A stretch of DNA of 64,000 nt from Marinilabilia salmonicolor. Lineage in GTDB: Bacteria > Bacteroidota > Bacteroidia > Bacteroidales > Marinilabiliaceae. Location of the stretch: NCBI RefSeq assembly GCF_003003035.1, contig NZ_PVTS01000022.1, positions 1 through 64,000 on the forward strand, read 5' to 3'. Each line of letters begins with the position of its first letter. Position 1 is the stretch's first letter. This document shows positions 1,412 through 55,847 of this stretch, piece by piece. The notes under the pieces are model-generated. The model did no database searches and was not told the DNA's origin. It saw nothing but the letters and a program-made list of their open reading frames with translations. The position numbers were made by a program, and so were the translations under genes.

Positions 1412-1641
1412 TTAGTGCCCGTCTATAAAGTCGGAAAAAATGGTTATTCTATAAACTAAGTAAAGGTTGTTTTTTATTGTGGGTCTGGTCAGAAAGTGCC
1501 AGTTGCAAGGCTTGCGACCGCGTGCCGCCTAAAGCTTTAGCGGTGGCGCAAGCCGCCAAAAGCGGAGTTTACTTGGGTAAATGAGAATCTTGGCGGCAAG
1601 CATAACGACGCAAATGGTACTTTATGGACAGACACTATTTA
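1412..1641 (+). repeat. Dispersed hairpin element, copy 1
   Basis: A nested inverted repeat. The outer left end resembles AGTGCCCGTCTATAAA and the right end is TTTATGGACAGACACT. Inside are GAAAGTGCCAGTTGCAAG on the left and GCAAATGGTACTTTA on the right, around an inner stem of the form CGCCAAAAGCGGAGTTTAC / GTAAATGAGAATCTTGGCG. The same architecture recurs at 27873, 28070, 34764 and 55708 and in a divergent form at 36446 and 37428. There is no coding capacity. It may be a miniature transposon-like element; no cognate transposase is present in the window. Confidence 0.7.
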
Positions 1642-1761
1642 GGTGTTGGGTTATTGCTATTGGAGGATGAGAAGCAAAAAGATCAGGAGGAAGAGTTTTT
1701 GTCTGATGAGTTTTTTAATATCTTTGCCGATAATGAGATAACCAACAACATCGTCGAATGA
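1624..1761 (+). pseudogene. Probable 3' remnant of a gene, fused to repeat end
   Basis: A 45-codon open frame rich in acidic residues, ending with TGA at 1759-1761 that overlaps the ATG of the next gene (ATGA at 1758-1761). That overlap is typical of co-translated genes and is why I take the frame as real. Its first codons (ATGGACAGACAC) lie inside the end of the hairpin element at 1412-1641, and the frame hits a stop (1603) inside that element. The simplest reading is that the 5' part of an efflux-operon gene was replaced by the repeat. It could instead be a genuine 45-residue gene. Confidence 0.4.
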
Positions 1762-2165
1762 AGATAAACGGGAAAAATACAGGATTATTTCTGCTGTGGC
1801 TGGCCGGTCTGGTCATCTTTTCGCATGAAATTATTCCTCATCATCACCATTTTCATTCGGCTTATACTTCATCACATCTCGATCATCAGGGAGGATGTGG
1901 TCACGATCATGAAAATGACTCGTCTTCTGATTCAACAGAGAATCATTGTCATGCTTTTAATGATATTACGGTAGAGCGACAAACTGTTGTGAAAATTTCG
2001 CAACCACAAATCTATTCTTTTCCCGGGTTATTTGTGGCCCCATTTTATTTAACCGATGGACCAGTATCAGATGAAGGTGTCAATTATTACTGCAAAACAG
2101 AATCCTCTGATACAGATGATTTTATTCTTTTTCCGGTTTTTCGCCGCGGACCTCCATTGATTTAA
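1758..2165 (+). CDS. His-rich small exported/membrane protein of the metal efflux operon
   Basis: A 135-residue protein with one hydrophobic N-terminal segment (about residues 9-24) followed by a His-rich stretch (IIPHHHHFHSAY, then HLDHQGGCGHDHEND and ENHCHAF). Small His-rich proteins of this kind commonly precede CzcA/CusA operons in Bacteroidota and are presumed to bind metal in the periplasm; that is family context, not proof. The start overlaps the preceding small open frame by ATGA. A 376-bp gap separates it from czcA, carrying a diverged copy of a leader repeat at 2361-2448 and otherwise nothing I recognise. Confidence 0.75.
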   Translation: MKINGKNTGLFLLWLAGLVIFSHEIIPHHHHFHSAYTSSHLDHQGGCGHDHENDSSSDSTENHCHAFNDITVERQTVVKISQPQIYSFPGLFVAPFYLTDGPVSDEGVNYYCKTESSDTDDFILFPVFRRGPPLI

Positions 2166-2360
2166 TACTTCTTTTATTTTATGGAATTGTGATGCGGTTG
2201 ATTTTGCATGAAATTCTTAATGTAAAACGACCACTCAATTTTCTAAAAAAATCAAATTTTTCAGAAATATCTTGTATTTGATTGCTGGCTTTATAGCGGA
2301 AATCATGATGATTATTCGTTATTAACCTTCAGTAGCTGTAGTTTCCAACGGGTCATTGGA

Positions 2361-2448
2361 ACAGGCATGGCAATGATTGCCTTGAGAGGATGGGCGTAAG
2401 TTTTTGCATATAGGTTTTGTTCGACCAAAATAATTGAATTCTATACAG
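2361..2448 (+). repeat. Leader repeat, copy A (diverged), before czcA
   Basis: Shares blocks with the two 93-nt leader repeats at 9903-9995 and 17305-17397: GCATGGCAATGATTGCC near its start, then TTCGACC followed by AATT and ending CTATACAG. It is directly followed by ATG at 2449, which opens only a 9-codon frame closed at 2478, just before the longest possible start of czcA (2479). Confidence 0.5.
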
Positions 2449-2541
2449 ATGAGGAATGCAGACAGCTACCTGTTCTGAATGTTGCTGAAGTGTCATAAAG
2501 ACGTGCCTGACCGACAATACAAGTATTACAATTTAATTTCT

Positions 2542-5500
2542 ATGATCAATAAAATAATTGCCTTTTCAATAAAGAATAAATTTATTGTGGGGCTTTTCAT
2601 TCTGGCCTGGATTGGGTGGGGACTGTATGCGATGCTTCATTTACCACTCAATACGGTACCCGATCTTACCAACAACCAGGTGAAAGTCACCACTTATGCT
2701 CCCGATCTGGCAACCGAGGAGATTGAACGATTAATCACCTATCCTGTGGAACTGGAGATGGGGAATCTTCCCGGTTTAATTGAGATACGTTCCCGTTCGA
2801 AGTTTGGATTGTCCGATATCACCCTGGTTTTTGAGGACGACATGGGGATGTACAAGCCGAGGCAACTGGTATCCGAAAAGTTAAAAGGAATCTCGGGCAA
2901 ATTGCCGGCAGGGGTTGGAGAGCCCTCCATGGGACCACTTACAAGTGGCCTGGGAGAAATTTATCAGTATGTGATCAGTGCCGAAGATGGTTATGAAGAT
3001 CAATATTCAGCGACTGACCTGCGGGAGATTCAGGACTGGGTTGTGAAGAAGGAGCTGATTAATATTCCCGGTGTGGTGGGCGTCAATACTATGGGAGGTT
3101 ACCTGAAACAGTATGAGGTTGCCGTAAATCCCGATCGTCTGCGTAGTTATGGAATTACCATTGTCGATGTTTTCGAGGCCCTGAAAAAGAACAATGCCAA
3201 TACGGGCGGCAGTTATATCGAGAAAAACCGACGGGCTTACTTTATTCGCGGGGAAGGCTTAACTACTTCGCTGGACGACATTCGTTCAACGGTTATTCAA
3301 CTTCATGGAGATACCCCGCTGCGCATTGGCGATGTGGCCGATGTGCAGTTTGGTCATGCTCCCCGTTTTGGGGCTTTTACCTACAATGGCAAAGGAGAAG
3401 CTGTCGGTGGTAAAATAATGATGTTGCGTGGAGAAAATCCCGCTGAGGTAATCGCCAATGTGAAAGAGCGACTGCCCCGCGTAGAGGAAGCATTGCCTGA
3501 AGGCGTTCAGATTGAGCCTTTTCTTGATCGCTCCACACTGATAAAAGATACCACTGCCACTGTAATTGAAAACCTGGTGCTTGGAGCATTGATTGTTATT
3601 TTTGTGTTGGTTTTTCTGATGGGAAACCTTCGCTCCGGGTTGATTACTGCTTCTGTTATTCCGCTCTCCCTGCTTTTTGCCCTTGGCGTGATGTACTCAT
3701 TCAATTTGTCGGCCAACCTGATCAGTCTGGGAGCGGTTGATTTTGGAATCATTATAGATGGAGCGGTGATTATCGTAGAGTTTGTGGTCTTTCAGATTAG
3801 CAAACGGATGCGGCATTTGCAGCAATTGAGTGGAAGCGGATTGAAGCAGAAGATGAATGAGATTGCAGGATGGGCCTCGGGGCGAATGATGCGAACAGCC
3901 ATTTTCGGGCAGTTGATTATTCTGATTGTGTTTGTTCCTATTCTGACGCTCACAGGGCAGGAAGGCAAGATGTTCCGGCCCATGGCCATTACTTTCGGAA
4001 CGGCCCTGATTGGTGCCATGATATTGTGTCTGACTTATGTGCCCATGATGGCTGCCTGGATTTTGAGGCCCGAAAAGAGCAATAAACCCGGACTGGCTGA
4101 TAAAATCATCGGAAGTACTCGACGTGGTTATCAGAGGATGCTGGGAATGGCTTTGCGATTCAGATATGCGGTCACTGGCGGTATTGTGGCACTTTTTGTG
4201 GTTGCTGTATTGCTCTTTAGCAGTTTGGGAGCTGTCTTTATTCCCCAGCTTGATGAGGGGGATTTTGCCATCCATCCTTTGCTGCAACCCGGCACTTCCC
4301 TTTCGGAAACCGTGGAGATTAATACCAAGCTGGAGAAAGTGCTGATGGAGAATTTCCCCGATGAGGTGGAGCAGGTGGCCACCAAGATTGGAACGGGCGA
4401 GATTCCAACCGATCCCATGTCGCTGGAAATGGCCAAAATGATCATCAATTTGTCGCCAAAAAATCAGTGGGTAAGGGCTGAAACCAAGGATGAACTGGAA
4501 GCCCTGATGAAGAAAGAGATGTCTGCCGAAGTGCCGGGCGTTAGTTTCTTTTTTGCCCAGCCCGTGGAGATGTTGTTCAATCACTTGCTGACCGGTTCTT
4601 CTGCCGATGTGCTGTTAAATATCTATGGTGAAAATCTGGATACTTTGTTTCATTATGGTAATGTGGCCCGCGCAATAATTGAGGATATTCCGGGTGCTGG
4701 AGACCTCAATGTGCAGAAAGTAATAGGCCTACCGCAGATGGTGGTACGCTACGACCGCGATCAGCTGGCGCGTTACGGATTGGATATTGAAACGGTCAAC
4801 CGGACTATCCAGTCTGCTTACTCCGGAGCTAAAGCAGGGATCGTTTACGAGGGAGAGCGCCAGTTTTCGCAAGTGGTGCGATTGGCAGACGATTATCGCA
4901 ACAATCCGGATGCCATTGGGGATTTATACCTGAAAAGACCCAACGGCGAGCAGGTGCGTTTGAGTGAAGTGGCTGATATCAGGATGCAGGCCGGGCCCGC
5001 CGCCATATCCCGTGAAGGAGTAAAGCGAAAACTGGAGGTGGATATCAATATTGATGGCCGGGATACGGAGTCTTTTGTGGAGGAGATTCAGCAAGAACTG
5101 GATAAGCGTCTGAACCTGCCTAAAGGTTACAATGTTTCATACGAGGGTGACTTTAAGAGTTTGCAGAGTGCCAAACAAAGGCTTTCCTGGGTGGTTCCGC
5201 TCGTTTTGGCATTCATTTTCGTGCTGCTTTATTTTACTTTTGGTTCCTCCCGTCAGGCGCTGTTGGTCTTTTCAGCAGTCCCGCTGGCGGCTATTGGTGG
5301 GGTTTTCTCTTTATGGCTTCGCGGAATGCCCTTCAGCATCTCTGCCGGAGTCGGGTTTATTGCCTTGTTTGGAATTGCGGTACTCAATGGAGTGGTGCTG
5401 ATGAGTTTCTTCAATGAACTGAAAGCCGAAGGAATGAGCAATCCTTTTCGGAGAGTTTATCACGGTACCGATATGCGTCTGCGACCGGTAATTCTGACTG

Positions 5501-6906
5501 CGTTGACTGATGCGTTAGGATTTTTACCGATGGCCATATCCACCTCTTCGGGTGCCGAAGTGCAAAGGCCACTGGCCACAGTGGTGGTGGGAGGCTTGAT
5601 TACAGCCACCTTGCTGACTTTGTTTCTTTTGCCGGTGATTTACACTTTTAAAGGACAAAAAATACGCGTGCCTTCGCTACTTGGCAATAATATTTCAAAA
5701 AATCGTAGCCGAATGAGACGTACTTTTTCAATTTTGCTGATTGCTTTGTTGTCACTTCCTGTGATGGGGCAACAAAACTCCACATTATCTTTGGATCAGG
5801 CGATACAAATGGCAATGGAAAACCATCCTGGTATTCATTCCGGACAATTGACGGTAGAAAAAAGCAGGGCAGAGAAATCTGCTGCCTTTGATTTACTGGA
5901 TACTAAACTGGCCTTCGAAAACGAAAATGAGGGGAGTGGACGTAAAACCTGGTCGGTGGAGCAGGAATTTAACAATCCACTGGAATATGTGACCCGCGCG
6001 AAGCTGGCAAATAAAAGAACCGACCGTGCAAGGTCAGCATTATTACAGTTGCAGGCCGCATTGATCCGTGAGGTAAAAACAGCCTATAATGAAGTGCTTT
6101 TTGCCCGGGATAAACTCTCTTTGATGGAGCAACTCCGGGAGCAATTTTCAGATCTGAGCAAAGCCGGGGAATTGAAGTATCAAACCGGAGATATTTCTTA
6201 TCTGGAAAGTGTTTCGGCACGCTCTAAATTCAAAGAGATCGTTCAGCAATTGGAAAAAGCACGGATGGCTTACCAAAACAGTCTGAATCGCTTGCAGGAG
6301 GTGGTCTTTTCGGAGGAACCGGTAATGGTTCGGGACTCTGTTTTGACGGAGTTTGATTTCGACTTGGAATCACTGGATACAATATCCTTTCGTCAACATC
6401 CGGGACTTGATGTTTCGCAGCGAAATACGTTTGTTGCCAAGGCTCAAAGTAAAATGCTGCAATCAGGTTCATGGCCCGATCCTTTTGTGCGTTTCAGTAA
6501 GACAGATGTGAACGGTGGGGATGGGTTCAATGCTTTTGAGGTAGGAGTGAAATTCCCCATTGACATCTGGGGCGAGAGCGGCAAAAACAAGAGTGCACGC
6601 CTTGAGGCTGAAATTGTTTCTGAAGAACATCGCGCCTATGAGCAATCGGTGGAGACAGGGTTCCTGAATTTGCGAAATGATCTGGAGAATCTGCGTAAGC
6701 AACTTCAATTCTTCCGGGAGAGTCGCCTAAAAGAGGCCGGTCTGATCGATAACAATGCCCGTCTTCAGTACGAGGCCGGAAATATTGATTATCTGCAATA
6801 TGTGCAGTACTTCGATCAGGCAACAAATATAAGACTGGAGTATCTGGCAGTTCTCCGCGATTACAATAATGTAGTTGCCCGACTGGAGTACATGACCGGA
6901 GAATAG
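2542..6906 (+). CDS. czcA: CzcA-type heavy-metal efflux RND pump fused to TolC-like outer-membrane factor
   Basis: About 1454 residues. The first ~1050 are a heavy-metal RND proton antiporter with 12 membrane segments and two periplasmic loops. TM4 reads VDFGIIIDGAVIIVE; the D400, D406 and E413 pattern matches CzcA-type zinc/cobalt/cadmium pumps rather than the CusA copper/silver type. The last ~400 residues are an outer-membrane factor (alternating helices such as YNEVLFARDKLSLMEQL and YEAGNIDYLQYVQYFDQA). At the junction lies an internal signal-peptide-like segment starting at an in-frame ATG at 5713 (MRRTFSILLIALLSLPVMGQ). Such fusions are common in Bacteroidota. I chose ATG 2542 (MINKIIAFSIKNK), where the family normally begins, over 2479, which adds a charged non-homologous leader. 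The adaptor gene follows after 20 nt. Confidence 0.93.
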   Translation: MINKIIAFSIKNKFIVGLFILAWIGWGLYAMLHLPLNTVPDLTNNQVKVTTYAPDLATEEIERLITYPVELEMGNLPGLIEIRSRSKFGLSDITLVFEDDMGMYKPRQLVSEKLKGISGKLPAGVGEPSMGPLTSGLGEIYQYVISAEDGYEDQYSATDLREIQDWVVKKELINIPGVVGVNTMGGYLKQYEVAVNPDRLRSYGITIVDVFEALKKNNANTGGSYIEKNRRAYFIRGEGLTTSLDDIRSTVIQLHGDTPLRIGDVADVQFGHAPRFGAFTYNGKGEAVGGKIMMLRGENPAEVIANVKERLPRVEEALPEGVQIEPFLDRSTLIKDTTATVIENLVLGALIVIFVLVFLMGNLRSGLITASVIPLSLLFALGVMYSFNLSANLISLGAVDFGIIIDGAVIIVEFVVFQISKRMRHLQQLSGSGLKQKMNEIAGWASGRMMRTAIFGQLIILIVFVPILTLTGQEGKMFRPMAITFGTALIGAMILCLTYVPMMAAWILRPEKSNKPGLADKIIGSTRRGYQRMLGMALRFRYAVTGGIVALFVVAVLLFSSLGAVFIPQLDEGDFAIHPLLQPGTSLSETVEINTKLEKVLMENFPDEVEQVATKIGTGEIPTDPMSLEMAKMIINLSPKNQWVRAETKDELEALMKKEMSAEVPGVSFFFAQPVEMLFNHLLTGSSADVLLNIYGENLDTLFHYGNVARAIIEDIPGAGDLNVQKVIGLPQMVVRYDRDQLARYGLDIETVNRTIQSAYSGAKAGIVYEGERQFSQVVRLADDYRNNPDAIGDLYLKRPNGEQVRLSEVADIRMQAGPAAISREGVKRKLEVDINIDGRDTESFVEEIQQELDKRLNLPKGYNVSYEGDFKSLQSAKQRLSWVVPLVLAFIFVLLYFTFGSSRQALLVFSAVPLAAIGGVFSLWLRGMPFSISAGVGFIALFGIAVLNGVVLMSFFNELKAEGMSNPFRRVYHGTDMRLRPVILTALTDALGFLPMAISTSSGAEVQRPLATVVVGGLITATLLTLFLLPVIYTFKGQKIRVPSLLGNNISKNRSRMRRTFSILLIALLSLPVMGQQNSTLSLDQAIQMAMENHPGIHSGQLTVEKSRAEKSAAFDLLDTKLAFENENEGSGRKTWSVEQEFNNPLEYVTRAKLANKRTDRARSALLQLQAALIREVKTAYNEVLFARDKLSLMEQLREQFSDLSKAGELKYQTGDISYLESVSARSKFKEIVQQLEKARMAYQNSLNRLQEVVFSEEPVMVRDSVLTEFDFDLESLDTISFRQHPGLDVSQRNTFVAKAQSKMLQSGSWPDPFVRFSKTDVNGGDGFNAFEVGVKFPIDIWGESGKNKSARLEAEIVSEEHRAYEQSVETGFLNLRNDLENLRKQLQFFRESRLKEAGLIDNNARLQYEAGNIDYLQYVQYFDQATNIRLEYLAVLRDYNNVVARLEYMTGE

Positions 6907-6926
6907 AGGTTATTAAGCGAAATGTA

Positions 6927-8336: not shown

Positions 8337-8430
8337 GGGCACAGCGCATGGAGCATGGGGCATGGCGAGCTAAAAGCAGACAAGATTAATGATGAAGCTC
8401 ATTTAGGGGTAACAGAAAAATGTATTTGCA

Positions 8431-9185: not shown

Positions 9186-9243
9186 CGATTAATCAATGAA
9201 AAAGCTGAAAGAAACCTGCTCAGCCGCATGGTACATGGAGCAC

Positions 9244-9279
9244 AGGGCACAGAGCTTTTTTCTCTATGCTCTGTGCCCT
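9244..9279. terminator. Bidirectional hairpin between convergent genes
   Basis: AGGGCACAGAGC at 9244-9255 pairs perfectly with GCTCTGTGCCCT at 9268-9279, with a T-rich loop. It sits 11 bp beyond the stop of the minus-strand gene at 9291. Confidence 0.55.
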
Positions 9280-9290
9280 ATGCGCTCTGC

Positions 9291-9995: not shown

Positions 9996-9998
9996 TTA

Positions 9999-27838: not shown

Positions 27839-27872
27839 TCAGGAATCACTTCCATTTTTTTTGCATTCTCGA

Positions 27873-28077
27873 CAAACACTAAGTATCGTCCGTCTATAAA
27901 CTAAGCAAAATTTGGTTCTGGTCATGTTTTTGTCAAGAAAGTGCCAGTTACAAAGCCTGCCCCGATTTTTCTTCGGGGGCTTGCTAAGCCCGAAAATACG
28001 CAGTTTACTTGAGTAAATGGGTAATTCTCGGGCAAGCGTAACGCAGTAAATGGTACTTTATGGACACACACTAAGTA
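27873..28077 (+). repeat. Dispersed hairpin element, copy 2
   Basis: Begins ACACTAAGTATCGTCCGTCT and ends TTTATGGACACACACTAAG. Inside are GAAAGTGCCAGTTACAAAG, then an inner stem CCCGAAAATACGCAGTTTAC / GTAAATGGGTAATTCTCGGG and GCGTAACGCAGTAAATGGTA. An extra hairpin CCCCGATTTTTCTTCGGGG is present left of the main stem. Adjacent to copy 3, sharing ACTAAGTAG at the junction. Confidence 0.75.
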
Positions 28078-28234
28078 GTGCCTGTCCATAAACTAAGCGT
28101 TTTTCACGTGTTTGAACTAGAAAGTTCAAATTCAAGGCGTGTGAAAAATCTAAACCGCAGAATACTAGTGTATTTGAGGATTTAGATTTTGAGCAACAAC
28201 GCAGAAGTTGGACTTTATAGACAAACACTAAGTA
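28070..28234 (-). repeat. Dispersed hairpin element, copy 3 (divergent stems)
   Basis: Ends are AGTGCCTGTCCATAAACTAA and CTTTATAGACAAACACT, flanked on both sides by ACTAAGTAG. Two inner stems are TTTTTCACGTG/CGTGTGAAAAA and AAATCTAAA/TTTAGATTT. Read on the minus strand it shares the CTTCTGCGTTG ... GCCTTGAATTTGAACTTTC frame of the other copies, with wholly different stem sequence. Confidence 0.7.
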
Positions 28235-34763: not shown

Positions 34764-34889
34764 TATGTCTGGTCAGAAAGTGCCAATTGCAAGGCTTGCG
34801 AAGTCCGAAAATACGGAGTTTACTCTTCGTAAATGAGTAATTTTCGGACGAGCGTAACGCAGCAATTGGTACTTTATGGACTGACACTA
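34764..34889 (+). repeat. Dispersed hairpin element, copy 4
   Basis: Starts near TGTCTGGTCAGAAAGTGCC and ends GGTACTTTATGGACTGACAC. The inner stem is GTCCGAAAAT / ATTTTCGGAC around GGAGTTTACTCTTCGTAAAT. It occupies the 362-bp gap between the SprB-repeat gene and the AbgT gene; the rest of the gap is AT-rich promoter-type sequence. Confidence 0.8.
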
Positions 34890-34914: not shown

Positions 34915-36447
34915 ATGAGTGAAAAAGTAAGGAAGAAAAGTTTTTTTGACAGGTTTCTGAATCTCCTGGAAAAGGGCGGAAATGCCTTGCCACACCCGGC
35001 GACGTTGTTTGGGATATTTGCGTTGGCAGCTCTTATTTTATCAGCTGTTGGCGCCTGGTTGGGGTGGACGGTTCAGCATCCAGGGACAGGCGAAACCATC
35101 CAGGTGGTGAATCTTTTCAGTAAAGAGGGCATTGCCATGATTATGGATCGGATGGTGGAGAATTACACCGGGTTTGCACCGTTGGGGATTGTGATGGTGG
35201 CGATGCTGGGAATTGGCATTGCTGAGTCAAGTGGTCTGATTGCGGCTTTTATTCGCCTGTTGGTGCTTTCATCGCCCAAGCGCCTGCTCACTTTTGTGCT
35301 GGTGTTTTCCGGGATTCTCTCCAACTTTGCCAGTGACATCGGTTATGTCCTTCTGATACCTTTGGGCGGAATTATCTTTCAGTCGGTTGGGCGACATCCT
35401 ATTGTGGGTATGGCAGCTGCCTTTGCCGGTGTTTCCGGAGGCTTTAGTGCCAACCTCATATTGGGAACCGTAGATCCCCTCCTTGCGGGACTCTCGCAGG
35501 AAGCTGCCCGCATTATTGACCCTACCTATGAGGTCAATCCTACGGCCAATTATTATTTTATGATTGTATCCACTTTTCTTATTGCTACAGTGGGTACCTG
35601 GGTTACCGAGAAAGTCATTGCCCCTCGTTTTGGGAAGTATGACGGCCCAGAAGGAGAAGAAAAACTGGAACGACTGTCATCGAAAGAGAAAAAAGGCCTG
35701 ATGTGGAGTTTGTTGGTTTTTGTGGGTTGGGTGGCCATAATACTCATTGGCATCATTCCTGAAGATGGTCTTTTGAGAGGTGACGACGGAGGTATTCTTT
35801 CTTCCCCAATCATTCGCGGAGTGATTGCACTCTTATTCCTGATTGCCGGTACTATGGGAATCGTTTATGGTGCTGTGATGGGGAAATACAAAAACGACTC
35901 AGATGTGGCTAAGAGCATGGCTGACAGTATGCGTACGCTGACCACCTATTTTGTGCTGGTGTTCTTTGCAGCTCAGTTTGTGGCCTACTTTAAATGGAGT
36001 AACCTGGGGGTAATTATGGCCGTCAACGGCGCTGAAGCCCTGATGGCCGCCGATCTGGGCGTGATTCCGCTGATGCTGTTGTTTGTATTGCTTTCGGCAT
36101 CAATCAATATGCTGATGGGAAGTGCCTCCGCCAAGTGGGCGATTATGGCACCTATATTTGTGCCCATGTTTATGTTGCTGGGATATTCACCCGAGCTCTC
36201 TCAGGCGGTTTACCGCATCGGAGATTCGGTGACCAACATCATTTCACCCATGATGAGTTTCTTTGCACTGATCATTGCCTATTTTAACAAATACGATGAA
36301 AAGGCCGGACTTGGAACCGTTATGGCCACTATGATTCCTTATAGCATCGCGTTCTTTATCGGATGGAGTATTCTGCTGGTTATCTGGCTGACTTTTGGTT
36401 TCCCGTTGGGGCCCGGAGCAGGACTGGACTATGTAATGCCCAACTAA
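34915..36447 (+). CDS. AbgT-family transporter (paralogue 1)
   Basis: 510 residues, about a dozen membrane helices. AbgT hallmarks are visible: GIAESSGLI, SDIGYVLLIPLGGIIF, GRHPIVGMAAAFAGVSGGFSANL and the C-terminal MGSASAKWAIMAPIFVPM with YRIGDSVTNIISPMM. Members import p-aminobenzoyl-glutamate or export p-aminobenzoate analogues. A second, clearly related copy is at 49038-50555. A hairpin repeat starts on its stop codon. Confidence 0.92.
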   Translation: MSEKVRKKSFFDRFLNLLEKGGNALPHPATLFGIFALAALILSAVGAWLGWTVQHPGTGETIQVVNLFSKEGIAMIMDRMVENYTGFAPLGIVMVAMLGIGIAESSGLIAAFIRLLVLSSPKRLLTFVLVFSGILSNFASDIGYVLLIPLGGIIFQSVGRHPIVGMAAAFAGVSGGFSANLILGTVDPLLAGLSQEAARIIDPTYEVNPTANYYFMIVSTFLIATVGTWVTEKVIAPRFGKYDGPEGEEKLERLSSKEKKGLMWSLLVFVGWVAIILIGIIPEDGLLRGDDGGILSSPIIRGVIALLFLIAGTMGIVYGAVMGKYKNDSDVAKSMADSMRTLTTYFVLVFFAAQFVAYFKWSNLGVIMAVNGAEALMAADLGVIPLMLLFVLLSASINMLMGSASAKWAIMAPIFVPMFMLLGYSPELSQAVYRIGDSVTNIISPMMSFFALIIAYFNKYDEKAGLGTVMATMIPYSIAFFIGWSILLVIWLTFGFPLGPGAGLDYVMPN

Positions 36448-36572
36448 TCTTTGCAAGAAAACACCAACTACTGCGTTATTCTCGTTTTTGAATCATTCAT
36501 TTACGAAAAAGTAAACTCATTGGATTCAAAAACTTCGAAAGCCTTGTATTTGGTGCTTTCTTATCAAAGATT
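36446..36572 (+). repeat. Hairpin element, variant family, copy 6
   Basis: Outer arms AATCTTTGCAAGAAAACACC and GGTGCTTTCTTATCAAAGATT-type end; inner stem GTTTTTGAATC (36484-36494) / GATTCAAAAAC (36523-36533) around CATTTACGAAAAAGTAAACT. The fixed parts (TGCGTTA, CATTTACGAA, AGTAAACTC, CTTCG, AAGCCTTG) match copies 1, 4 and 5, although the ends differ. A stem-less relative lies in opposite orientation at 37428-37492, so the pair brackets the YkgJ-type gene. Confidence 0.7.
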
Positions 36573-47910: not shown

Positions 47911-47954
47911 TTTGGTAAGGCAGAAGAATCTGCCGCACTTAATCTGTCATTGGT

Positions 47955-47993
47955 AACGTAGTGAAGCAATCTCAGTTTTTTAACTGGACACCA
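47955..47993 (-). repeat. Half copy of the GAGATTGCTTC element
   Basis: On the minus strand TGGTGTCCAGTTAAAAAACT then GAGATTGCTTCACTACGTT, matching the left half of the element at 42303-42386. The right half is missing. Confidence 0.7.
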
Positions 47994-48023
47994 ATTAAAA
48001 TATAACAATCTAACAATAGTACC

Positions 48024-48842
48024 ATGAAGTATAACTGGACAACCATTAAAGAATACGAAGACATTAAGTTTGAGTTTTGCGAAGAAGTGGGAAAGGTGAC
48101 CATCAACCGTCCCCGTGTTTACAACGCGTTTCGTCCGCAGACCGTAAAGGAGATGATTGATGCCTTTGATATTTGCCGTGAGCGGCAGGATATTGGCGTG
48201 GTGGTGCTTACCGGTGAAGGAGACAAGGCTTTTTGTTCCGGGGGTGACCAAAACGTAAAAGGACATGGCGGATACATGGATGAGGACGGGGTTCCACGTC
48301 TGAACGTGTTGGATCTTCATAAACGTATTCGCTCTCTGCCCAAGCCGGTAGTTGCCATGGTCAACGGTTATGCCATTGGTGGTGGCCATGTTTTGCACGT
48401 AGTTTGCGACCTGACAGTTGCGAGTGATAAGGCCATTTTTGGACAGAGCGGGCCCAAGGTGGGAAGTTTTGATGCCGGTTTTGGTTCCTCTTACCTTGCC
48501 CGTCATGTGGGACAAAAGAAAGCACGTGAGATTTGGTTCCTGTGTAAACAGTATTCTGCCGAAGAGGCTGAGAAAATGGGCCTTGTAAATAAAGTGGTTT
48601 CACACGAATGGCTGGAAGATGAGACCATGGAATGGTGCAAAATAATGCTCCAACGCAGTCCCATGGCATTGCGGATGATCAAAAGAGGACTGAATGCCGA
48701 GCTTGACGGACAGACTGGCATTATGGAGATGGCCGGAGATGCTACACTGATGTTCTACCTCATGGAGGAAGCTCAGGAGGGACGTAAAGCGTTCTTGGAA
48801 AAGCGGGATCCTGATTTTAAGCAGTTTCCTAAGTTCCCCTAA
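48024..48842 (+). CDS. menB: MenB, 1,4-dihydroxy-2-naphthoyl-CoA synthase
   Basis: 272 residues of the crotonase fold. MenB marks are [15 protein letters not shown], the oxyanion-hole stretch [15 protein letters not shown], and [16 protein letters not shown]. It closes the naphthoate ring of o-succinylbenzoyl-CoA. menC, menE and menH are not next to it; the following gene is an AbgT transporter. The organism therefore has the remaining steps elsewhere. Confidence 0.95.
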
Positions 48843-48924
48843 GACAATAAACGAAATTTTGATGACCATATAAGGCATATTTAATATATTACAAATCATC
48901 ATTGAATGGGTTTTATCAACCTGG

Positions 48925-48939
48925 ACGCTTTCGAAGCGT
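48925..48939 (+). terminator. Possible terminator after menB
   Basis: ACGCTT-TCG-AAGCGT followed by TTTTG; short stem and T-run, so weak. Confidence 0.35.
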
Positions 48940-49037
48940 TTTGTTACAGGTGGATTATAAACCACTGTAAGCCTTAATACTCCTGATATGTCTGATATGG
49001 TTTAAATATTTTTTCATTATCCAATCAACTAAAAACT

Positions 49038-50555
49038 ATGTCAGAAAAGAAAAAAGAAGGTTTCTTCAAAAGACTACTCGATAAGGTTGAAGTTGCCGGA
49101 AACAAACTACCTCAACCCGTTACTTTGTTTGCGATGCTCATGGGAATAGTGCTCTTGCTCTCGTGGATTTTTGGTTCTTTGGGGGTAAGTGCTACCCATC
49201 CGGCCAGCGGAGAGGAAGTAAAAGCAGTGAACCTCCTGAGTGCTGACGGGGTAAGGCGGATTATGACATCTATGGTGGATGTGTTTGCTGAGTTTCCGCC
49301 ATTGGGACTGGTTCTGGTGGTAATGTTGGGAATTGGCGTTGCCGAGCGCAGCGGATTAATATCTGTCGGACTCCGGATGTTTGTGAGTAAGGTACCCAAA
49401 TCGCTCATCACTTTCTCCATTGTGGTGGCCGGTATGATCAGTTCCATTGCTGCAGATGCCGGTTACGTGGTATTGATTCCTTTGGGAGCAGCCATATTTC
49501 ACAGTATGGGGCGTCATCCGATTGCAGGGTTGGCTGCTGCGTTTGCAGGTGTCTCCGGAGGGTTTGGTGCCAATTTTCTACCCACAGGACTTGATCCTTT
49601 GATTGCATCTTTTACCCAGCCTGCCGCTCAGATTATTGAATCGGGTTATACCGTCAACCCGCTGTCCAATTACTTCCTGATGGCTGCATCTGTTCCTTTT
49701 GTGGGACTGGCCGGAACATGGGTGACCGAGCGCATTATCATACCTCGTTTGGGGAAATACACCGAAGATACCGATGAGGTGGTGAACAATGAAATATCAC
49801 CCATAGAAAGGAAAGGTCTGAAGTGGACTTTACTTACAATCGTGGTATTTCTGGGACTTTTGGTTTGGGGTATTGTTCCTGAGAATGCACTGTTTCGTGC
49901 CGAGGATGGTGGTTTGGAACCGTTTTACAACTCCATTGTGCCACTGATGTTTATCCTTTTCTTTATTGCCGGATTGGTTTATGGTTTGATTACCAAATCA
50001 ATTAAGGGCGATAAGGATGTGGCCAATATGACCGCCGAATCTATGTCCACCATGGGAGGCTATATAGTTCTTGCCTTTGTGGCTGCCCAGTTTGTGGCAT
50101 TCTTCAACTGGTCAAATCTGGGACTGATAGTAGCCATTACCGGAGCTGATGGCTTGCAGGATATCGGTTTTACGGGAACACCACTTCTGGTGGCGTTTAT
50201 TCTGGTTTCCTCTTTGGTCAATCTGATGATTGGCAGTGCCTCAGCCAAGTGGGCTATTCTGGCACCTATTTTTGTGCCTATGCTGATGCTGATGGGGTAC
50301 AGTCCTGAGACCACTCAGGCAGCCTACCGTATTGGAGACTCTTATTCCAATATTCTAACCCCCTTACTTCCTTACTTCCCTCTGGTTATTACGTTTGCAC
50401 AGAAATATGTGAAGAACATCGGACTGGGAACCATTATTTCCACGATGCTTCCTTTTGCAATTGTTTTTGCCGTTGTTAGGATTGTAACTTTTATAATATG
50501 GATTTGGCTCGATATTCCTTTGGGTATTGAAGGCCCCATTTATTATGGTGGATAA
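49038..50555 (+). CDS. AbgT-family transporter (paralogue 2)
   Basis: 505 residues, sharing motif order and wording with the protein at 34915: GVAERSGLI, ADAGYVVLIPLGAAIF, GRHPIAGLAAAFAGVSGGFGANF and IGSASAKWAILAPIFVPM. It differs at the cytoplasmic loop and in FLPTGLDPL versus ILGTVDPL. It probably moves p-aminobenzoyl-glutamate or an analogue. A strong terminator follows 43 nt after its stop. Confidence 0.92.
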   Translation: MSEKKKEGFFKRLLDKVEVAGNKLPQPVTLFAMLMGIVLLLSWIFGSLGVSATHPASGEEVKAVNLLSADGVRRIMTSMVDVFAEFPPLGLVLVVMLGIGVAERSGLISVGLRMFVSKVPKSLITFSIVVAGMISSIAADAGYVVLIPLGAAIFHSMGRHPIAGLAAAFAGVSGGFGANFLPTGLDPLIASFTQPAAQIIESGYTVNPLSNYFLMAASVPFVGLAGTWVTERIIIPRLGKYTEDTDEVVNNEISPIERKGLKWTLLTIVVFLGLLVWGIVPENALFRAEDGGLEPFYNSIVPLMFILFFIAGLVYGLITKSIKGDKDVANMTAESMSTMGGYIVLAFVAAQFVAFFNWSNLGLIVAITGADGLQDIGFTGTPLLVAFILVSSLVNLMIGSASAKWAILAPIFVPMLMLMGYSPETTQAAYRIGDSYSNILTPLLPYFPLVITFAQKYVKNIGLGTIISTMLPFAIVFAVVRIVTFIIWIWLDIPLGIEGPIYYGG

Positions 50556-50597
50556 GTTTTGTAATTGAACCATAAAATAAAGAAGCTGGCAAAAAAG

Positions 50598-50625
50598 AAC
50601 CCCGGGCAACTATCGCTCCGGGGTT
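50598..50625 (+). terminator. Rho-independent terminator
   Basis: AACCCCGG / CCGGGGTT perfect 8-bp stem, 12-nt loop, then TCTGTTTTTTG. It ends the AbgT transcript; the AAAAAAG on the left suggests it also serves the minus-strand gene at 50647. Confidence 0.85.
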
Positions 50626-50646
50626 TCTGTTTTTTGTGATTAACCT

Positions 50647-50847
50647 TTAGTTCTTCTTATCTTCTGATTTGTTAGCAGCCGACCGAATTGAACGAACTAT
50701 AGAAACTAACGTTGCGGTCATCGCAATAAAAATAAGATAATTGAGCCAGTTTTCGGATGAACGAAGGTTGTTGAAGTTGATTGAGGCCACATCTGCAATC
50801 AGAATAACCATTCCGAAAATCAATAATGAATAACGGACTTTTTGCAT
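50647..50847 (-). CDS. Small two-helix membrane protein, hypothetical
   Basis: 66 residues with two hydrophobic helices (YSLLIFGMVILIADVASI and WLNYLIFIAMTATLVSIV) and a Lys/Glu-rich tail. No family is recognised. Its stop is 22 nt from the shared terminator and its sequence is protein-like, so it is probably real. Confidence 0.6.
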   Translation of the reverse strand: MQKVRYSLLIFGMVILIADVASINFNNLRSSENWLNYLIFIAMTATLVSIVRSIRSAANKSEDKKN

Positions 50848-50934
50848 CTCTTTCTCAAATTAATGGATGATTGCCGGTTAATAGTTTTACTTCTGCCTCT
50901 CAATCTTCTGCCTTTCCAACTTCTGTCAGAGAAA

Positions 50935-51726
50935 TCACAATAGTTTCTTAAATAATTCTGCAACTTCATCCACGTCTTTCAGTGTATAAGATGCGTGTGT
51001 CGGATTGCCATTGTGCTCCACCATTATGCCAATTCCAATCCCATCAGTTTCCAGTGCTTCGAAAGCATCCTCATCGGTGTCATCATCTCCTATGTAAACC
51101 GGAATTACCGAATCATCGGTGGCCAATCCGAGTTCCTGAAGAATCCACAGCACTGCTTTTCCTTTGTGCCAGTCAAGATCGGGCTTTATTTCCACTATTT
51201 TTTTGCCGGTTCCTTTCTTGTAACCGGGGTTTTTGGCCAATACCTCTTCAAAATCAGCCAGAATGTCATCAATCTCTTCGTCTTTGGCATTGCGGTAATG
51301 CACCCCAATGGCATAACGTTTACGGTCAATCTGAACCCCCTTGTATTTTTTCTGGAGCTCCATCAGTTCCTTCTCTATGATGTTCAGCTCGGGAAGCAGC
51401 ACAGAAGTCTTTTCATGTTCTTTGTAAAGTCCGTCGGGACCGGAAATCCTGAATCCGTGACTTCCTGCATATAACAGGTTGTCTAAACCAACGAGTTTTT
51501 TTACATCATCCATATCGCGGCCGGTAATAACGGCCACAGTATATTTCTCTGCCAGTTGTGCCAGCAGATCTTTCATTTCCTGGCTGATTTGGGCATCTTC
51601 CGGGCGACTGACAATTGGGGTCAGTGTTCCGTCATAGTCTAAAAACAGGGCAGGTTTTCTACCTTTCACTTCCTCAAAAAAATCATTTTGGCCGTCAAAA
51701 ACCGGCTTCGGATTTGATTTTGTCAT
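50935..51726 (-). CDS. otsB: Trehalose-6-phosphate phosphatase
   Basis: 263 residues, HAD superfamily with the type-IIB cap. The nucleophile motif is ALFLDYDGTLTPIV, then VITGRDMDDVKK, the cap-domain GSHGFRISGPDG, and the acidic motif YIGDDDTDEDAFEAL. It dephosphorylates trehalose 6-phosphate; no otsA-type synthase is in the window. Trehalose is a common osmoprotectant in marine bacteria. Confidence 0.93.
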   Translation of the reverse strand: MTKSNPKPVFDGQNDFFEEVKGRKPALFLDYDGTLTPIVSRPEDAQISQEMKDLLAQLAEKYTVAVITGRDMDDVKKLVGLDNLLYAGSHGFRISGPDGLYKEHEKTSVLLPELNIIEKELMELQKKYKGVQIDRKRYAIGVHYRNAKDEEIDDILADFEEVLAKNPGYKKGTGKKIVEIKPDLDWHKGKAVLWILQELGLATDDSVIPVYIGDDDTDEDAFEALETDGIGIGIMVEHNGNPTHASYTLKDVDEVAELFKKLL

Positions 51727-51913
51727 GGTATCTTATATATCGGTTTATCGTTCAATTGCCCCTTGACCTTTTTCAAAGTTTTGGAGATAAAGCTTAATAT
51801 TAAAAAATAATATTTTTGATAAAATCCAGAAATTCAGCATTATACGATTTTTCTAATCTCTAACCTCTAATTTCTAACAATCTAATTTTATGGTTTACTC
51901 AAATATAAAAAAA

Positions 51914-52930
51914 TTATGCAAAAAACAACCAAAGGTTGCCGGTCAGATAAAATACAATTATTAGAAGGCTTTCCCAGCCTATTTTCCCGATTCCCTGCTT
52001 TTCCCGATGAAGTAATCCCAGTATTAATGTCGCCGTCAGTAGCATTGTCAATGCAATAATAAATATCTGATTTTGGGAGATGGCATGTAGAATGCTGCCA
52101 TCGTTGTAGGCTATATCGGCAAATGCCACAAAGAGAATATCAAAGCTGTTGCCACCAATGATATTACCCACTGCCAGGGTAAGGGCTTTCTGCCGGACGG
52201 CAGCAATGGATACCACCAGCTCGGGCAATGATGTGGCAACGGCAGTAAGTAACATACCCACAAACCCTTCGGACAGATTGGTTTTATCGGCAATTACCAT
52301 TCCTGTGCGGGCTACAAAATATCCCGCAACGGCCACGATTGCTGCCAAGACAATAAACTTAATGTAGATGAGATAAGGGTATCTGGGTTGTAAATTTTCT
52401 TTGTCGGGAACGTCCTCAACTGTCTGTCTGGTCATCCTTGGAAGCCACATCGGATAGTCTTTGGCTCTGCTAATCATTTTTGTTCCCAGAATATAAAAGA
52501 GAATTAATATAAAAGAGATGGGATGGATGTGAAAAAATGTGGTCTCAGGACCGGATATTCCTAACAGGATAAGTGCAAGTAGTCCCAGCAGTAAAACGCC
52601 CTGCATGAGATTGGCAAATGAGGCGGCAGCATGTTCCAGGTTTATTTTTCGATAAGAGATGTCTGCAATTGACAGAAACAGGGTTTGAGCAGCAATTCCT
52701 CCTATGGCATTGCTGATGGCGAGCTGTGGATGCCCGTTGTATGCTGCAACAACCGAAGTTATGATTCCTGGTAAAGAGGTTGTACCGCCCAGAAAAACAG
52801 CTCCAAATAAGGCTTCTCCCAATCCTGTGATATCTGCCAGACGGTCTGCCTCTTTTGCAAGCATCGTTCCTGCTATTGCAATGATGATGGTGGAAATAAT
52901 AAAGAGGACAATGGAAGTTTGTAATTCCAT
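51914..52930 (-). CDS. Calcium/sodium antiporter family (CaCA) protein
   Basis: 338 residues, ten membrane helices in two inverted halves. The alpha-1 repeat is GGTTSLPGIITSVVAAY with AISNAIGGIAAQT, and alpha-2 is AVATSLPELVVSIAAVR with AVGNIIGGNSFDILF. The second half has the canonical Glu of TSLPELV and Asn/Asp of GGNSFD; the first half has TSLPG in place of TSLPE and GGIAAQT in place of GNxFD, so ion binding is asymmetric. Exchange of Ca2+ or another cation for Na+ or H+ is expected. Confidence 0.87.
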   Translation of the reverse strand: MELQTSIVLFIISTIIIAIAGTMLAKEADRLADITGLGEALFGAVFLGGTTSLPGIITSVVAAYNGHPQLAISNAIGGIAAQTLFLSIADISYRKINLEHAAASFANLMQGVLLLGLLALILLGISGPETTFFHIHPISFILILFYILGTKMISRAKDYPMWLPRMTRQTVEDVPDKENLQPRYPYLIYIKFIVLAAIVAVAGYFVARTGMVIADKTNLSEGFVGMLLTAVATSLPELVVSIAAVRQKALTLAVGNIIGGNSFDILFVAFADIAYNDGSILHAISQNQIFIIALTMLLTATLILGLLHREKQGIGKIGWESLLIIVFYLTGNLWLFFA

Positions 52931-52960
52931 GGAACAAGTAGTTTTAGGCGCTTAAAAATT

Positions 52961-53884
52961 TTAAGTTTTTACAAAGAAGTGATTCTCCTGGTGGTTGTAG
53001 ATAATATTGATTGCCGAGGGGAGTACTTCTACTTCCAGCTGTTTGAGTTCCCCTACCGGTTCCCCATCTACCTGAAGATCCTGGGCTGGTTGCATTTTTA
53101 TCTTTGCATGTCGGCACGAAAGCGTTCGGATGTGTCTGAGTCGGTGAATATTGCCTGTAAAAAATGCAAAAACCATATGAAAAAGATAATACCACGGATA
53201 TGGCTTAATAACAACCATTTCAAATTTTCCGTCGTCAATCTTTCCTGTGGGGTTTACCACCGCTCCGGTTCCAAAGAAGTGAGTGTTGGTCATGACCAGC
53301 ATTACAGCTTTGTATTTTCTTCTCTTTTTTCCTTCGCAATCAACGATGCACTTAAAATGAGACGGAGATTTTAGCTCCTTAAAAAACTGTCGTGCATATC
53401 CGTAAAATCCTCTTATTTTCTCCTGATCAAAACGCTTGATGATCCGCGCGTTCATGCCCAGATCACTTAAATGAATTGCCAAATGCTTTTTGTTGATTTT
53501 TAAGAGATCAATGACCCGCGATGCATTCCGTTCAATGACAGATAAAGCCTGTTCGAAATTGGTTGGGATATTCAATTCAAAAGCCATTCCATTGGCAGAA
53601 CCGGTGGGGATGATTCCCAATTTTGTTTTGGTATTTATCAGAACTGAGGCCACCAGATTCACGGTTCCGTCTCCTCCTACTGCAACAACTGTATCCGGGG
53701 AATTATTGTTGATGGTTTCGGTTATTCGTTCCTCATCATTCTCTCCTGTTGTTTCCAAAAAGGAGGCCGGGAGCGAATGGGTTTTACAAAACCGGGTAAT
53801 TTCCCCTTGTACATCAATTTTTTGATTGCTTCCCGAAATCGGATTGATGATGAATAGAATATTTCTATTTTCAGAACTGCTCAT
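52961..53884 (-). CDS. Diacylglycerol/lipid kinase (DgkB/YegS family)
   Basis: 307 residues. The catalytic nucleotide-binding motif is VVAVGGDGTVNLVAS (about 68-82), preceded by FIINPISGSNQK and followed by IIPTGSANGMAFEL; residue pattern PTGKIDDGKFEMVV is the conserved second domain. It phosphorylates diacylglycerol or a related lipid. It is divergent, 83 bp away, from a predicted phosphatidate phosphatase. Confidence 0.92.
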   Translation of the reverse strand: MSSSENRNILFIINPISGSNQKIDVQGEITRFCKTHSLPASFLETTGENDEERITETINNNSPDTVVAVGGDGTVNLVASVLINTKTKLGIIPTGSANGMAFELNIPTNFEQALSVIERNASRVIDLLKINKKHLAIHLSDLGMNARIIKRFDQEKIRGFYGYARQFFKELKSPSHFKCIVDCEGKKRRKYKAVMLVMTNTHFFGTGAVVNPTGKIDDGKFEMVVIKPYPWYYLFHMVFAFFTGNIHRLRHIRTLSCRHAKIKMQPAQDLQVDGEPVGELKQLEVEVLPSAINIIYNHQENHFFVKT

Positions 53885-53907
53885 GTCGTTTGATTCAAGG
53901 TAATAGC

Positions 53908-53915
53908 TAACTTTG
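53908..53915 (+). promoter_or_regulatory. -7 box upstream of the App1-like gene
   Basis: TAACTTTG at 53908-53915 with TTTG at 53889-53892 only 15 nt upstream, a shorter spacing than the consensus. The predicted leader is about 45 nt. Confidence 0.4.
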
Positions 53916-53967
53916 AGTAAACAATTATCACTTACGATTCTTTAAATATAAAAAAACAAATCTTCAG

Positions 53968-55158
53968 ATGCCCATAATAACCAAAACTTTCCGTTACATT
54001 CTTCGAAAAGCCGGTAGTCCGTTCCGACGTGCCCGTCTGTGGCTCAAAAAGCGTCTTGGCTGGTTAGGTATTCCCACCATTGAACCCTATCTGGGGTTCT
54101 GTAACGGTCAGGATGTTTATATTTCCGGCAATGTGATGGAGGATAAAGGACTTGAAAAGCCCAGGCCGGGACAATCGTTGGGGAGCAATATGCTGGCCAT
54201 GTTTAAGCGTTATGTGAGTGATGAAATTGGCGGGGTGCGGGTTAAAGTGATTTTTCATGAAAGATCTCAGATAGTGGAGACCAACGAACTGGGAATCTTT
54301 CATTGTTCTTTCAGGTTTGATGAGCCGGTTTCTCCGGATAACCATTTTGAGCCGGTTTATTATGAATTGTTGGATGAGGTGGTTGAAAATCAGGGGGAAA
54401 TCAGGGCGACCGGTGAGGTGTTGGTAGTGTCGGAGAAACTCTCCTTTGGCGTTGTGTCTGACATTGATGATACGGTTATGGTGTCTCACTCTACAAAAAC
54501 ATTGAAAAAGCTGAAGCTGATGCTTTTTAAGAATGCCCGGACACGTGTTCCATTTGAAGGTGTGGGAGCTTTTTACCGAGCCCTTCGTAAAGGGGGGGAG
54601 GATCAGCAGCATTTTAATCCGGTTTTTTATGTGTCCAGTAGTGAATGGAATTTATATGATTTGCTCGTAGATTTTTTTGAATTCCGGAATATTCCCGCGG
54701 GGCCTTTAATGCTGCAGGAACTGGAACACAGTATCTTTCAGTTTTGGAAATCAGGTGGTGGAAATCATGAACACAAACTGGAGAAAATACGTTTCTTATT
54801 TTCCTTTTTTCCTAAGTTGGACTTTGTCCTGATTGGTGACAGCGGTCAGAGGGATCCTTCGCTTTATCTGCAAGCTGCCAGAGAATGCCCGGGAAGGGTA
54901 AAAGCGGTCTATATCCGTTGCATCGGGAAAGCCCATAAAAACAGGCAAACATTAGAAATCGCCCGTCAGATGGAGCAACTGAATGTTCCCATGTTGTTGA
55001 TTGATAGCACGGAGGAGGCTGCCCGCCATGCTTTGATGAACGGGTTTATAGCACCGTCATCCATGCCCGATATCGCCCGACAGTTAGAGGAAGACCACAA
55101 TTTTTCTTTTACCGATTCTTTTTACAGTGAGAATGAACAGCTGATTGCTGATAATTAA
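53968..55158 (+). CDS. App1-family phosphatidate phosphatase (DUF2183)
   Basis: 396 residues. The catalytic DxDxT signature is VVSDIDDTVMVSHS, followed by ARTRVPFEGVGAFYRAL and the acidic LIGDSGQRDPSLY motif, as in the conserved App1 catalytic domain; App1 of yeast dephosphorylates phosphatidate and diacylglycerol pyrophosphate. The N-terminal half has a beta-rich domain typical of bacterial members. Paired divergently with a lipid kinase, it could form a kinase/phosphatase switch on the same lipid, which is inference. Confidence 0.9.
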   Translation: MPIITKTFRYILRKAGSPFRRARLWLKKRLGWLGIPTIEPYLGFCNGQDVYISGNVMEDKGLEKPRPGQSLGSNMLAMFKRYVSDEIGGVRVKVIFHERSQIVETNELGIFHCSFRFDEPVSPDNHFEPVYYELLDEVVENQGEIRATGEVLVVSEKLSFGVVSDIDDTVMVSHSTKTLKKLKLMLFKNARTRVPFEGVGAFYRALRKGGEDQQHFNPVFYVSSSEWNLYDLLVDFFEFRNIPAGPLMLQELEHSIFQFWKSGGGNHEHKLEKIRFLFSFFPKLDFVLIGDSGQRDPSLYLQAARECPGRVKAVYIRCIGKAHKNRQTLEIARQMEQLNVPMLLIDSTEEAARHALMNGFIAPSSMPDIARQLEEDHNFSFTDSFYSENEQLIADN

Positions 55159-55239
55159 TCAATTATATGAACCTTTTGCTTGCGGGCTGGTTAGTATGAG
55201 GATAGTATATATTACATTTTAACCTTAAAAACTAACGTT

Positions 55240-55689
55240 ATGAGTAAGAAAATGTTCCTTTTTGCCATTGTTGCAACAATGGGGCTGGGATTCCTGGCAT
55301 GTAATTCAACCCAAAAGAAACAGGATGAGAAGAAGGTATCCGATGCCGTTGAAGAGAATTATGAAGACCTCAAAGAGGAGTTAAACGAAGTGGGTGTTGC
55401 CATTTCAGATTTGTTTAAAGCTGAAAAGGGCGACTTTAAATCTTCGGCCAACGAGGTGTTGGATGACATAAACCGGAAAGCCGAGGATCTCAAACAAAAA
55501 ATTGCAGGAAATGAGGATGAGAATACGCTGAAAAACAAACTGCATAAGCTCGAGCAGGAAGCCGATAATCTGGAAAAAGAACTGCAGGAACTGGATGATA
55601 AAACCGAAGAAGAATGGAAAAAAGCCAGAGCAAAAATTGAAGAGAATTTTAAAGCGGTTCAGAAGGAAATCGAGACTTTCTTTGAATAG
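55240..55689 (+). CDS. Coiled-coil lipoprotein
   Basis: 149 residues: a lipoprotein signal (MFLFAIVATMGLGFLAC, Cys at the cleavage site) and then a long charged coiled coil (LKNKLHKLEQEADNLEKEL and similar heptads). Related to small sll1863-like stress lipoproteins by general look only. Likely in the periplasm attached to a membrane; function unknown. Confidence 0.8.
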   Translation: MSKKMFLFAIVATMGLGFLACNSTQKKQDEKKVSDAVEENYEDLKEELNEVGVAISDLFKAEKGDFKSSANEVLDDINRKAEDLKQKIAGNEDENTLKNKLHKLEQEADNLEKELQELDDKTEEEWKKARAKIEENFKAVQKEIETFFE

Positions 55690-55707
55690 TTTATTTGTGA
55701 ATTAATC

Positions 55708-55847
55708 AGTTTCTGTCCATAAAGTACCACTTGCGTTCCCGAAGGATCGGGGCAGGCTGTTAAGCTTGTCGCCAAAAACGGAGTTTACGATTAGTAAACT
55801 CCGTTTTTGGCGGCTTCGCAAGCCTTGCAATTGGCACTTTCTGACTA
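55708..55847 (-). repeat. Dispersed hairpin element, copy 5
   Basis: Begins AGTTTCTGTCCATAAAGTAC and ends GCAATTGGCACTTTCTGACT. It holds the best inner stem of the family: CGCCAAAAACGGAGTTTAC (55770-55788) perfectly complementary to GTAAACTCCGTTTTTGGCG (55794-55812), five-base loop. It sits in the 328-bp gap after the lipoprotein gene; the rest of the gap (55848-56017) has short palindromic pieces (GAAAGGCCGAAGGTCTTT) and no gene. Confidence 0.8.

Follow-up and report, generated by a model that had tools for sequence, protein, structure and literature searches.

The stretch analysed here, hereafter the window, comprises 64,000 nucleotides of the Marinilabilia salmonicolor genome (contig NZ_PVTS01000022.1, positions 1 to 64,000) and contains a dispersed family of hairpin repeats. 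An earlier note, made from the sequence alone, had described five copies with a fixed frame around changing, still self-complementary stems, and a variant at 36446 with other outer ends and the same core. These repeats are miniature inverted-repeat transposable elements (MITEs), tiny transposons without a gene of their own. According to a covariance model (R1) built from 27 Bacteroidota cores, a structured core is indeed common to all five copies and the variant: the six matches have E-values from 6.7e-32 to 3.2e-12, the next-ranked ones are the same copies on the opposite strand (E = 1.4e-4, 0.0074, 0.17 and 0.28), and beyond these the window matches at unrelated sites only with E = 0.75 or weaker. 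Three rows of the model come from the window, and the copies at 27967, 28125 and 55751 are absent from its training rows. The elements and their core matches are:

1414..1636 (+): copy 1, complete, with an extra hairpin at the core base; ATTT flanks at 1410-1413 and 1637-1640; core 1530-1618 (+).
27871..27880 (+): what is left of another element, its right end GACAAACACT, adjoining copy 2 on the upstream side (by eye).
27885..28072 (+): copy 2, with an extra hairpin and a diverged outer left end; AAGT flanks at 27881-27884 and 28073-28076 (flanks by eye); core 27967-28054 (+).
28077..28229 (+): copy 3, variant core with tip stem AATAC/GTATT; AAGT flanks at 28073-28076 and 28230-28233 (by eye); core 28125-28212 (+).
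34764..34888 (+): copy 4, without the outer left end; site empty in congeners G002 and G003 and occupied in G004; core 34782-34870 (+).
36446..36572 (-): the variant, a family B element whose outer left end is lost in this copy; core 36463-36554 (-).
55708..55850 (-): copy 5, outer left end lost; one core arm rewritten as the perfect complement of the other; core 55751-55835 (-).

The outer left end is kept in copies 1-3 and lost at 34764, at 55708 and in the variant. Copies 2 and 3 stand head to tail with an AAGT duplication in common; over 27871-28233 three AAGT copies separate the remnant end, copy 2 and copy 3, the elements inserting beside each other's ends and sharing a 4-bp target. The perfect stem of copy 5, already pointed out before, is real but exceptional: the loci examined show 162 distinct standard tips and no other clear instance of a perfected one. 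A process that rewrites the arms, as had been suggested, is thereby seen in this copy, where one arm is the exact complement of the other, and in no other clear case. L161, considered as a second rewritten arm, was withdrawn since an 8-nt deletion accounts for it. Moreover, the earlier statement that no transposase lies in the window stands for DDE_Tnp_1, DDE_Tnp_1_6, DUF772, Y1_Tnp and the ISNCY transposase, none of which has a match on the window contig among the listed hits, the search being limited to these families.

The host genome (4.79 Mb in 60 contigs) holds 430 sites of the 16-bp inverted end pattern AGTGYCYGTCYATAAA against 32 for the reversed pattern (up to 2 mismatches), and hence roughly 200 elements. 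A DNA search with copy 4 gave at least 57 matches, the best 40 of 193 candidates being scored. Alignment of 30 loci together with pairing of the ends reveals a complete unit of ~164 bp with two left ends and one right end. The outer left end AGTGCCYGTCYATAAA is separated by ~28 nt from an inner one resembling TGTGTCTGGTCAGAAAGTGCCA; the core comes next, followed by the right end TGGTACTTTATGGACAGACACT. The long hairpin is formed by the inner left end paired with the right end, while it is the outer left end that adjoins the duplication. Small extra hairpins occur at the core base in some copies. Target duplications, for which the earlier note had proposed to look, are evident as identical 4-bp flanks in 97 elements (184 loci; ATTT 28, AAAT 24, AATT 22, ACTT 10, others 13). 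The length is 163-168 bp in 73 of these 97; use of the inner end should give about 125 bp, and no element comes close to that. In a stricter test, identical 4-mers were found in 83 of 134 end pairs lying 140-240 bp apart, compared with a mean of 18.9 and a maximum of 31 in 2000 shuffles. The end sites and the paired 4-mers thus agree with the previous view of miniature mobile elements. Nearly all of the duplication-bearing elements (86 of 87) have no overlap of more than 60 bp with an open reading frame of 100 aa or more. Apparent long elements were seen in L020, L162 and L175; that in L162 consists of neighbouring copies and that in L175 spans host genes.

The variant at 36446 belongs to a second family (family B), which shares the plan and the core of the first family while its ends differ. 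Complete copies have the ends AGTGCCAGCAAGAAAAC / AGTCTTTGCAAGAAAAC, and their left side runs from AGTGCCAGCAAGAAAAC through a spacer to the inner end, as read in nine copies from congeners and one Anaerophaga-group genome. In eight of the nine, the 4-mer that follows the right end is repeated immediately ahead of the outer left end: six have it at -33 as printed, in L330 the spacer is shorter by one base, and L327 was read by eye; L325 fails.

A partner transposase seems to be missing from the host genus, as no ISNCY transposase homologue was detected in its five genomes (the own genome and four congeners), and homologues, mostly distant, are present in 5 of 71 family genomes. Matching ends on both sides were not found at any of the examined loci of PF01609 (26: L045-L049 and L184-L204), PF05598 (6 of 8) and PF01797 (30), whether in the host genus or in relatives; neither rve, IS66 and IS1380 nor other families were part of this search. 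Single end-like sites occur at a few transposase loci, for instance L186, L201 and L202, and the own genome gave no match to PF13751. Searching named genomes for the right end yielded at least 114 stretches, and the matches listed come from Anaerophaga, Marinilabilia, Salinivirgaceae, a Bacteroidales bin, a Lentisphaerae-labelled bin and Mariniphaga sp. LH_M28. The metagenome bin labelled uncultured Lentisphaerae carries a full element (L079, record CAJXKU010000040.1).

In Mariniphaga sp. LH_M28 the right end lies on seven contigs and is part of a different repeated element, an insertion sequence (IS; L081:2-1625) of 1,624 bp with ends AGTGTCTGTCCATAAA / AGTGTCTGTCAATAAA and a single 443-aa gene, whose protein matches NCBIfam transpos_ISNCY_1 (378 bits, cut-off 325). 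An IS transposase with matching ends, which the earlier note had thought worth seeking, hence exists in Mariniphaga and was not found in the host genus. Rhizobial relatives of this element, of the ISRm17 type, are found in 193 plasmid records. Three of them were fetched and have near-same ends, clearly in L264 and L266 and less so in L265; the Sinorhizobium/Rhizobium ends at L264 and L266 read AGTGCCC(A/G)TCCATAAAC and AG(T)GTCCGTCCACAAACGG-like, with AGCT on both sides of L266 and AGCCT at L264. Ends of this kind, found in the Mariniphaga IS and its rhizobial relatives, thus characterise this ISNCY group across two phyla. The IS of this family (ISRm17 group; Mariniphaga L081) thus have the same terminal inverted repeats as the MITEs, but unlike them are autonomous, ~1.6 kb long and without the core hairpin. 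The REP-associated (Y1) transposase that had also been suggested as a partner finds no such parallel, the core tip being near a Y1 transposase in 1 of 30 Y1 loci (several cut by contig ends). An integron attC site, with R and L boxes beside a cassette array or integrase, is presumably a poor comparison, the elements here being dispersed and having 4-bp duplications.

In the core, variable stems are set among fixed blocks, namely AAGGC, GGAG-nnTAC/GTAnn-TGA and AACGCAG. From its fixed base, AAGGC..GCGAAG opposite AAGCGTAACGCAG, it continues through a stem that varies and an internal loop that does not (GGAG opposite TGAG) to a short stem at the tip, and the Bacteroidota form reads CAAGGCTTGCGAAG-stem-CGGAG-TTTAC-nnnn-GTAAA-TGAG-stem-GAGCGTAACGCAG. 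Its pairing was assessed in alignment A1, comprising 27 rows, chimeras included; they were drawn from 61 representatives of the clusters into which 243 core-like hits (227 of them distinct) fall, and representatives without one anchor block, gammaproteobacterial or viral ones and non-cores were left out. Over the 31 named pairs, 85.8% of the cells are paired, compared with 74.9% after shuffling and 37-42% after sliding. Changes on both sides affect 19 pairs (12.1 shuffled) and 96 cells (36.1 shuffled), the score is 0.314 (0.133 shuffled), and 0 of 500 shuffles reached any of the pairing measures. RNAalifold gives the same stem and tip. In alignment A2 (39 chosen rows with further groups, without chimeras and doubtful rows), where counting was confined to the outer and tip helices since the groups do not share a register in the middle stem, 89.1% of cells are paired against 72.2%, and 92 cells against 28 are changed on both sides (0 of 500 shuffles); on the measures that count pairs and pair types, 14 and 17 of 500 shuffles did as well as the alignment. 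Such counts are inflated by relatedness among the rows, the counted cells being sequences and not independent events, and hence the argument for covariation is carried by the slid control and by the range of genera involved. Tip stems that pair fully come in six forms (TTTAC, CTTAC, TGTAC, CGTAC, TTAAC and AATAC). The stems therefore turn over on both arms yet stay paired, well above the shuffled and slid controls, as the first description of the five copies had it. In a few cores (L033:481-679, L041:2404-2602 and L097) an AT-rich hairpin bounded by TCCCGA/TCGGGA-like arms is inserted at the tip.

The core also occurs under other ends in other bacteria. DNA matches were obtained in 20 of 61 relatives; all 5 genomes of the host genus and 2 in g13 match over the full length, and g18 has a longer partial match (L057). 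Most of the remaining relatives match mainly over the core, and the loci read there show different ends except L065, which has this right end. In L065 (G048), at ~1410-1574, the core is interrupted by a GCCTGCCTGCCGGCAAGGCAGG-type palindrome, a palindrome inside a palindrome. A phylum scan of 395 genomes, with strict filters and the best 11 candidates scored per genome, found matches at E = 1e-5 in at least 43 genomes: the own genome, 39 of f43 (1.6-3.0 Mb), 2 of f49 and 1 of f31, the last being doubtful as it is without the AACGC block. The f43 genomes represent a second lineage of the phylum, possibly Chlorobia, and several of their elements have ends like GGGCACCTCTAAAAAGTG. The tip pattern is further present at 8 sites in 7 stretches of viral contigs (AAGGC block in 8 of 8, AACGC block in 7 of 8) and in 16 plasmid records (14 Pseudomonas, 1 Halomonas and 1 Candidatus Fukatsuia).

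Although built from Bacteroidota alone, R1 also recognises the gammaproteobacterial and viral-contig loci: 10 of the 11 reach E = 1.3e-4 or better, the strongest at 57 bits (E = 1.5e-15), and the one that fails, L251, has an insert in its core. As a control, 166 kb of transposase loci, with L185 and L232 (known cores) and L238-L242 left out, gave one match, to a partial core. No match was obtained for the Bacteroidota form in the collections of plasmids and phages, for one gammaproteobacterial form among phages, or in a BLAST search of E. coli with the Halomonas form. The MITE-like elements of Pseudomonas and Halomonas (L246-L253) have the same core as the Bacteroidota MITEs, but their ends differ, being of the CAGGCCGTTGAAAAAC and GGCTTTGTACGAAAA types, with TTAA flanks at L250 (by eye). 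MITEPsy1 (PMC3189936) serves as a comparison for these elements, the core itself having been read in L246-L253 only.

ERIC, which has been used for strain typing over decades, seems to belong here as well. Its centre is present in 5375 of 5426 E. coli genomes (with a query based on its primers), and full copies read GAAGGCGACAAG-AGAGTGAAT-CCCC-AGGAG-CTTAC-ATAA-GTAAG-TGACT-GGGG-TGAGCGAACGCAG. Like the elements described here, ERIC is MITE-like, intergenic and multi-copy, and it has a central hairpin GGAG-CTTAC/GTAAG-TGA with AAGGC and AACGCAG blocks arranged on its flanks as they are here; it differs in its length of 127 bp, its CCCC/GGGG stem and its weak model score, and the copies read lack the ends AGTGYCYGTCYATAAA. 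With R1, ERIC is the best match in 40 kb (20.3 bits, E = 0.0006; next 0.15), and in 73 kb it has E = 0.0012-0.0014. A second model (R2), also built without ERIC, again places it first (E = 0.005-0.008; next 0.74). ERIC was examined post hoc after the likeness had been noticed, and these E-values are rough and 20 bits modest.

On this sequence comparison, kinship of ERIC with the Bacteroidota core is likely. Chance or convergence, with the core shared only by the Bacteroidota and gammaproteobacterial elements, would agree with the low score of a candidate tested for its likeness, with the fewer pairs of the ERIC stem and with the poor alignment of its outer parts to the model. We nevertheless consider it rather unlikely, because the order of three separate fixed blocks is the same (AAGGC; GGAG-CTTAC-n4-GTAAG-TGA; GAGCG-AACGCAG against GAGCGTAACGCAG), ERIC ranks first with both models, and the CTTAC/GTAAG tip is also present in the Bacteroidota copy L185. 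A 2024 review (PMC10969869) assigns ERIC to the Enterobacteriaceae and Vibrionaceae, and neither 'Bacteroid' nor 'ISNCY' occurs in its main text. A keyword and sequence-string search of the literature found no paper linking ERIC to Bacteroidota elements, although most subscription papers are outside its coverage and absence is unproven. To our knowledge no partner transposase of ERIC has been described, and we know of no settled account of either its mobiliser or the reason for its hairpin.

An alternative role for the core is that of a structured RNA signal, transcribed with its neighbours, altering RNA processing or stability and selected at the RNA level after insertion. The fixed loop amid varying stems would suit such a role, and ERIC and Correia are reported to act on mRNA via RNase E and RNase III (PMC10969869, PMC2229807). 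However, the tests on the strand of G-U pairs and on gene orientation were negative or mixed. G-U exceeds A-C in the wider Bacteroidota set (36 vs 19, p = 0.03), but the counts are 7/4 in the own genome, 23/16 in the well-paired stems of the wider set and 5/12 in f43; the small gammaproteobacterial and ERIC sets give 2/0 each. Relative to codirectional neighbour genes, 27 elements lie in the same and 24 in the opposite orientation, and convergent, codirectional and divergent placements number 9/51/11 against a background of 74/315/93. The window has 0 Rfam 15 matches at the gathering score. An RNA signal is therefore improbable, and the discrete structured RNA that the earlier note had entertained finds no backing in these results. 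That the paired differences reflect a few inherited subfamilies spread by transposition, without selection on pairing, is even harder to credit: two stem types do dominate (78 GCCGCC-type and 41 GTCCG-type of 206 distinct contexts) and chimeras exist, but other genera and groups show different, still paired stems and the six fully paired tips, and the slid controls keep relatedness yet lose the signal.

Taken together, the repeats are best explained as non-autonomous DDE MITEs that were moved in trans by an ISNCY-family transposase and carry an ERIC-type core hairpin, a reading to which we assign a probability of about 0.72. It builds on the ends, the duplications, a partner IS with the same ends elsewhere, the both-sided stem changes and the same core under other ends, and the lack of copy 4 in two congeners also speaks for it. 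The mover would be a transposase of this type, recognising AGTGYCYGTCYATAAA at both ends, acting in trans on the ~164-bp units and making 4-bp duplications of AT-rich targets; since no such gene was found in the host genome, the copies are probably stranded now. Selection on the fold would maintain the pairing, together with, in at least one copy, the copying of one arm from the other. With the RNA-role tests negative or mixed, we favour a role of the core as folded DNA that may act in the element's own spread rather than as a signal for the host.

Several observations weigh against parts of this explanation. Two chimeric copies have unpaired arms from two subfamilies (L040:829-992 and L041:217-381), and as the former has identical AATT 4-bp flanks, pairing may not be needed for transposition. 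The core is absent from the IS loci (0 matches in 65 kb), and mobilisation by ISNCY is something we infer from end sequence, the one feature that MITE and IS have in common. The only full Mariniphaga IS copy stands at a contig edge, where a 4-bp duplication is not checkable. The empty site of copy 4 is not clean because that copy is without its left end.

A broader proposal is that one hairpin module underlies the MITEs of Bacteroidales, f43 and Pseudomonas/Halomonas as well as ERIC, and is kept as ends are exchanged; with internal loops that are fixed and stems that turn over, it would be a functional part of the mobile element, read as a folded strand, and not an IS relic. We place this at even odds. 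If true, the shared module would also hint that the ERIC mobiliser is a DDE transposase of the IS5/ISNCY kind. A core with different ends, about 200 copies per genome and a candidate transposase would make the question of the ERIC mobiliser and hairpin testable, and a large orphan MITE family of Marinilabilia and Anaerophaga is tied to a definite IS family. The MITE family is new but of a known kind, whereas the core under exchanged ends is apparently unrecognised in the literature searched. The ISNCY-type DDE ends and a core common to other bacterial groups, probably including ERIC, had both escaped the earlier note.

Correia/NEMIS of Neisseria resembles the core in having AAGGCGACGAAG and AACGC blocks around a hairpin, but it has its own fixed tip, CAGACAGTAC-n5-GTACGGCAAGG. 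Its match to the core model (15.4 bits, E = 0.003 in 1.7 kb) is too weak for membership, and kinship is not claimed. The Correia tip is also present in elements of Burkholderiales whose ends are quite unlike those of Correia, which makes it a second core under exchanged ends; the loci carrying it are L321 (Cupriavidus metallidurans), L322 and L324 (Eleftheria terrae) and L323 (Neisseria gonorrhoeae).

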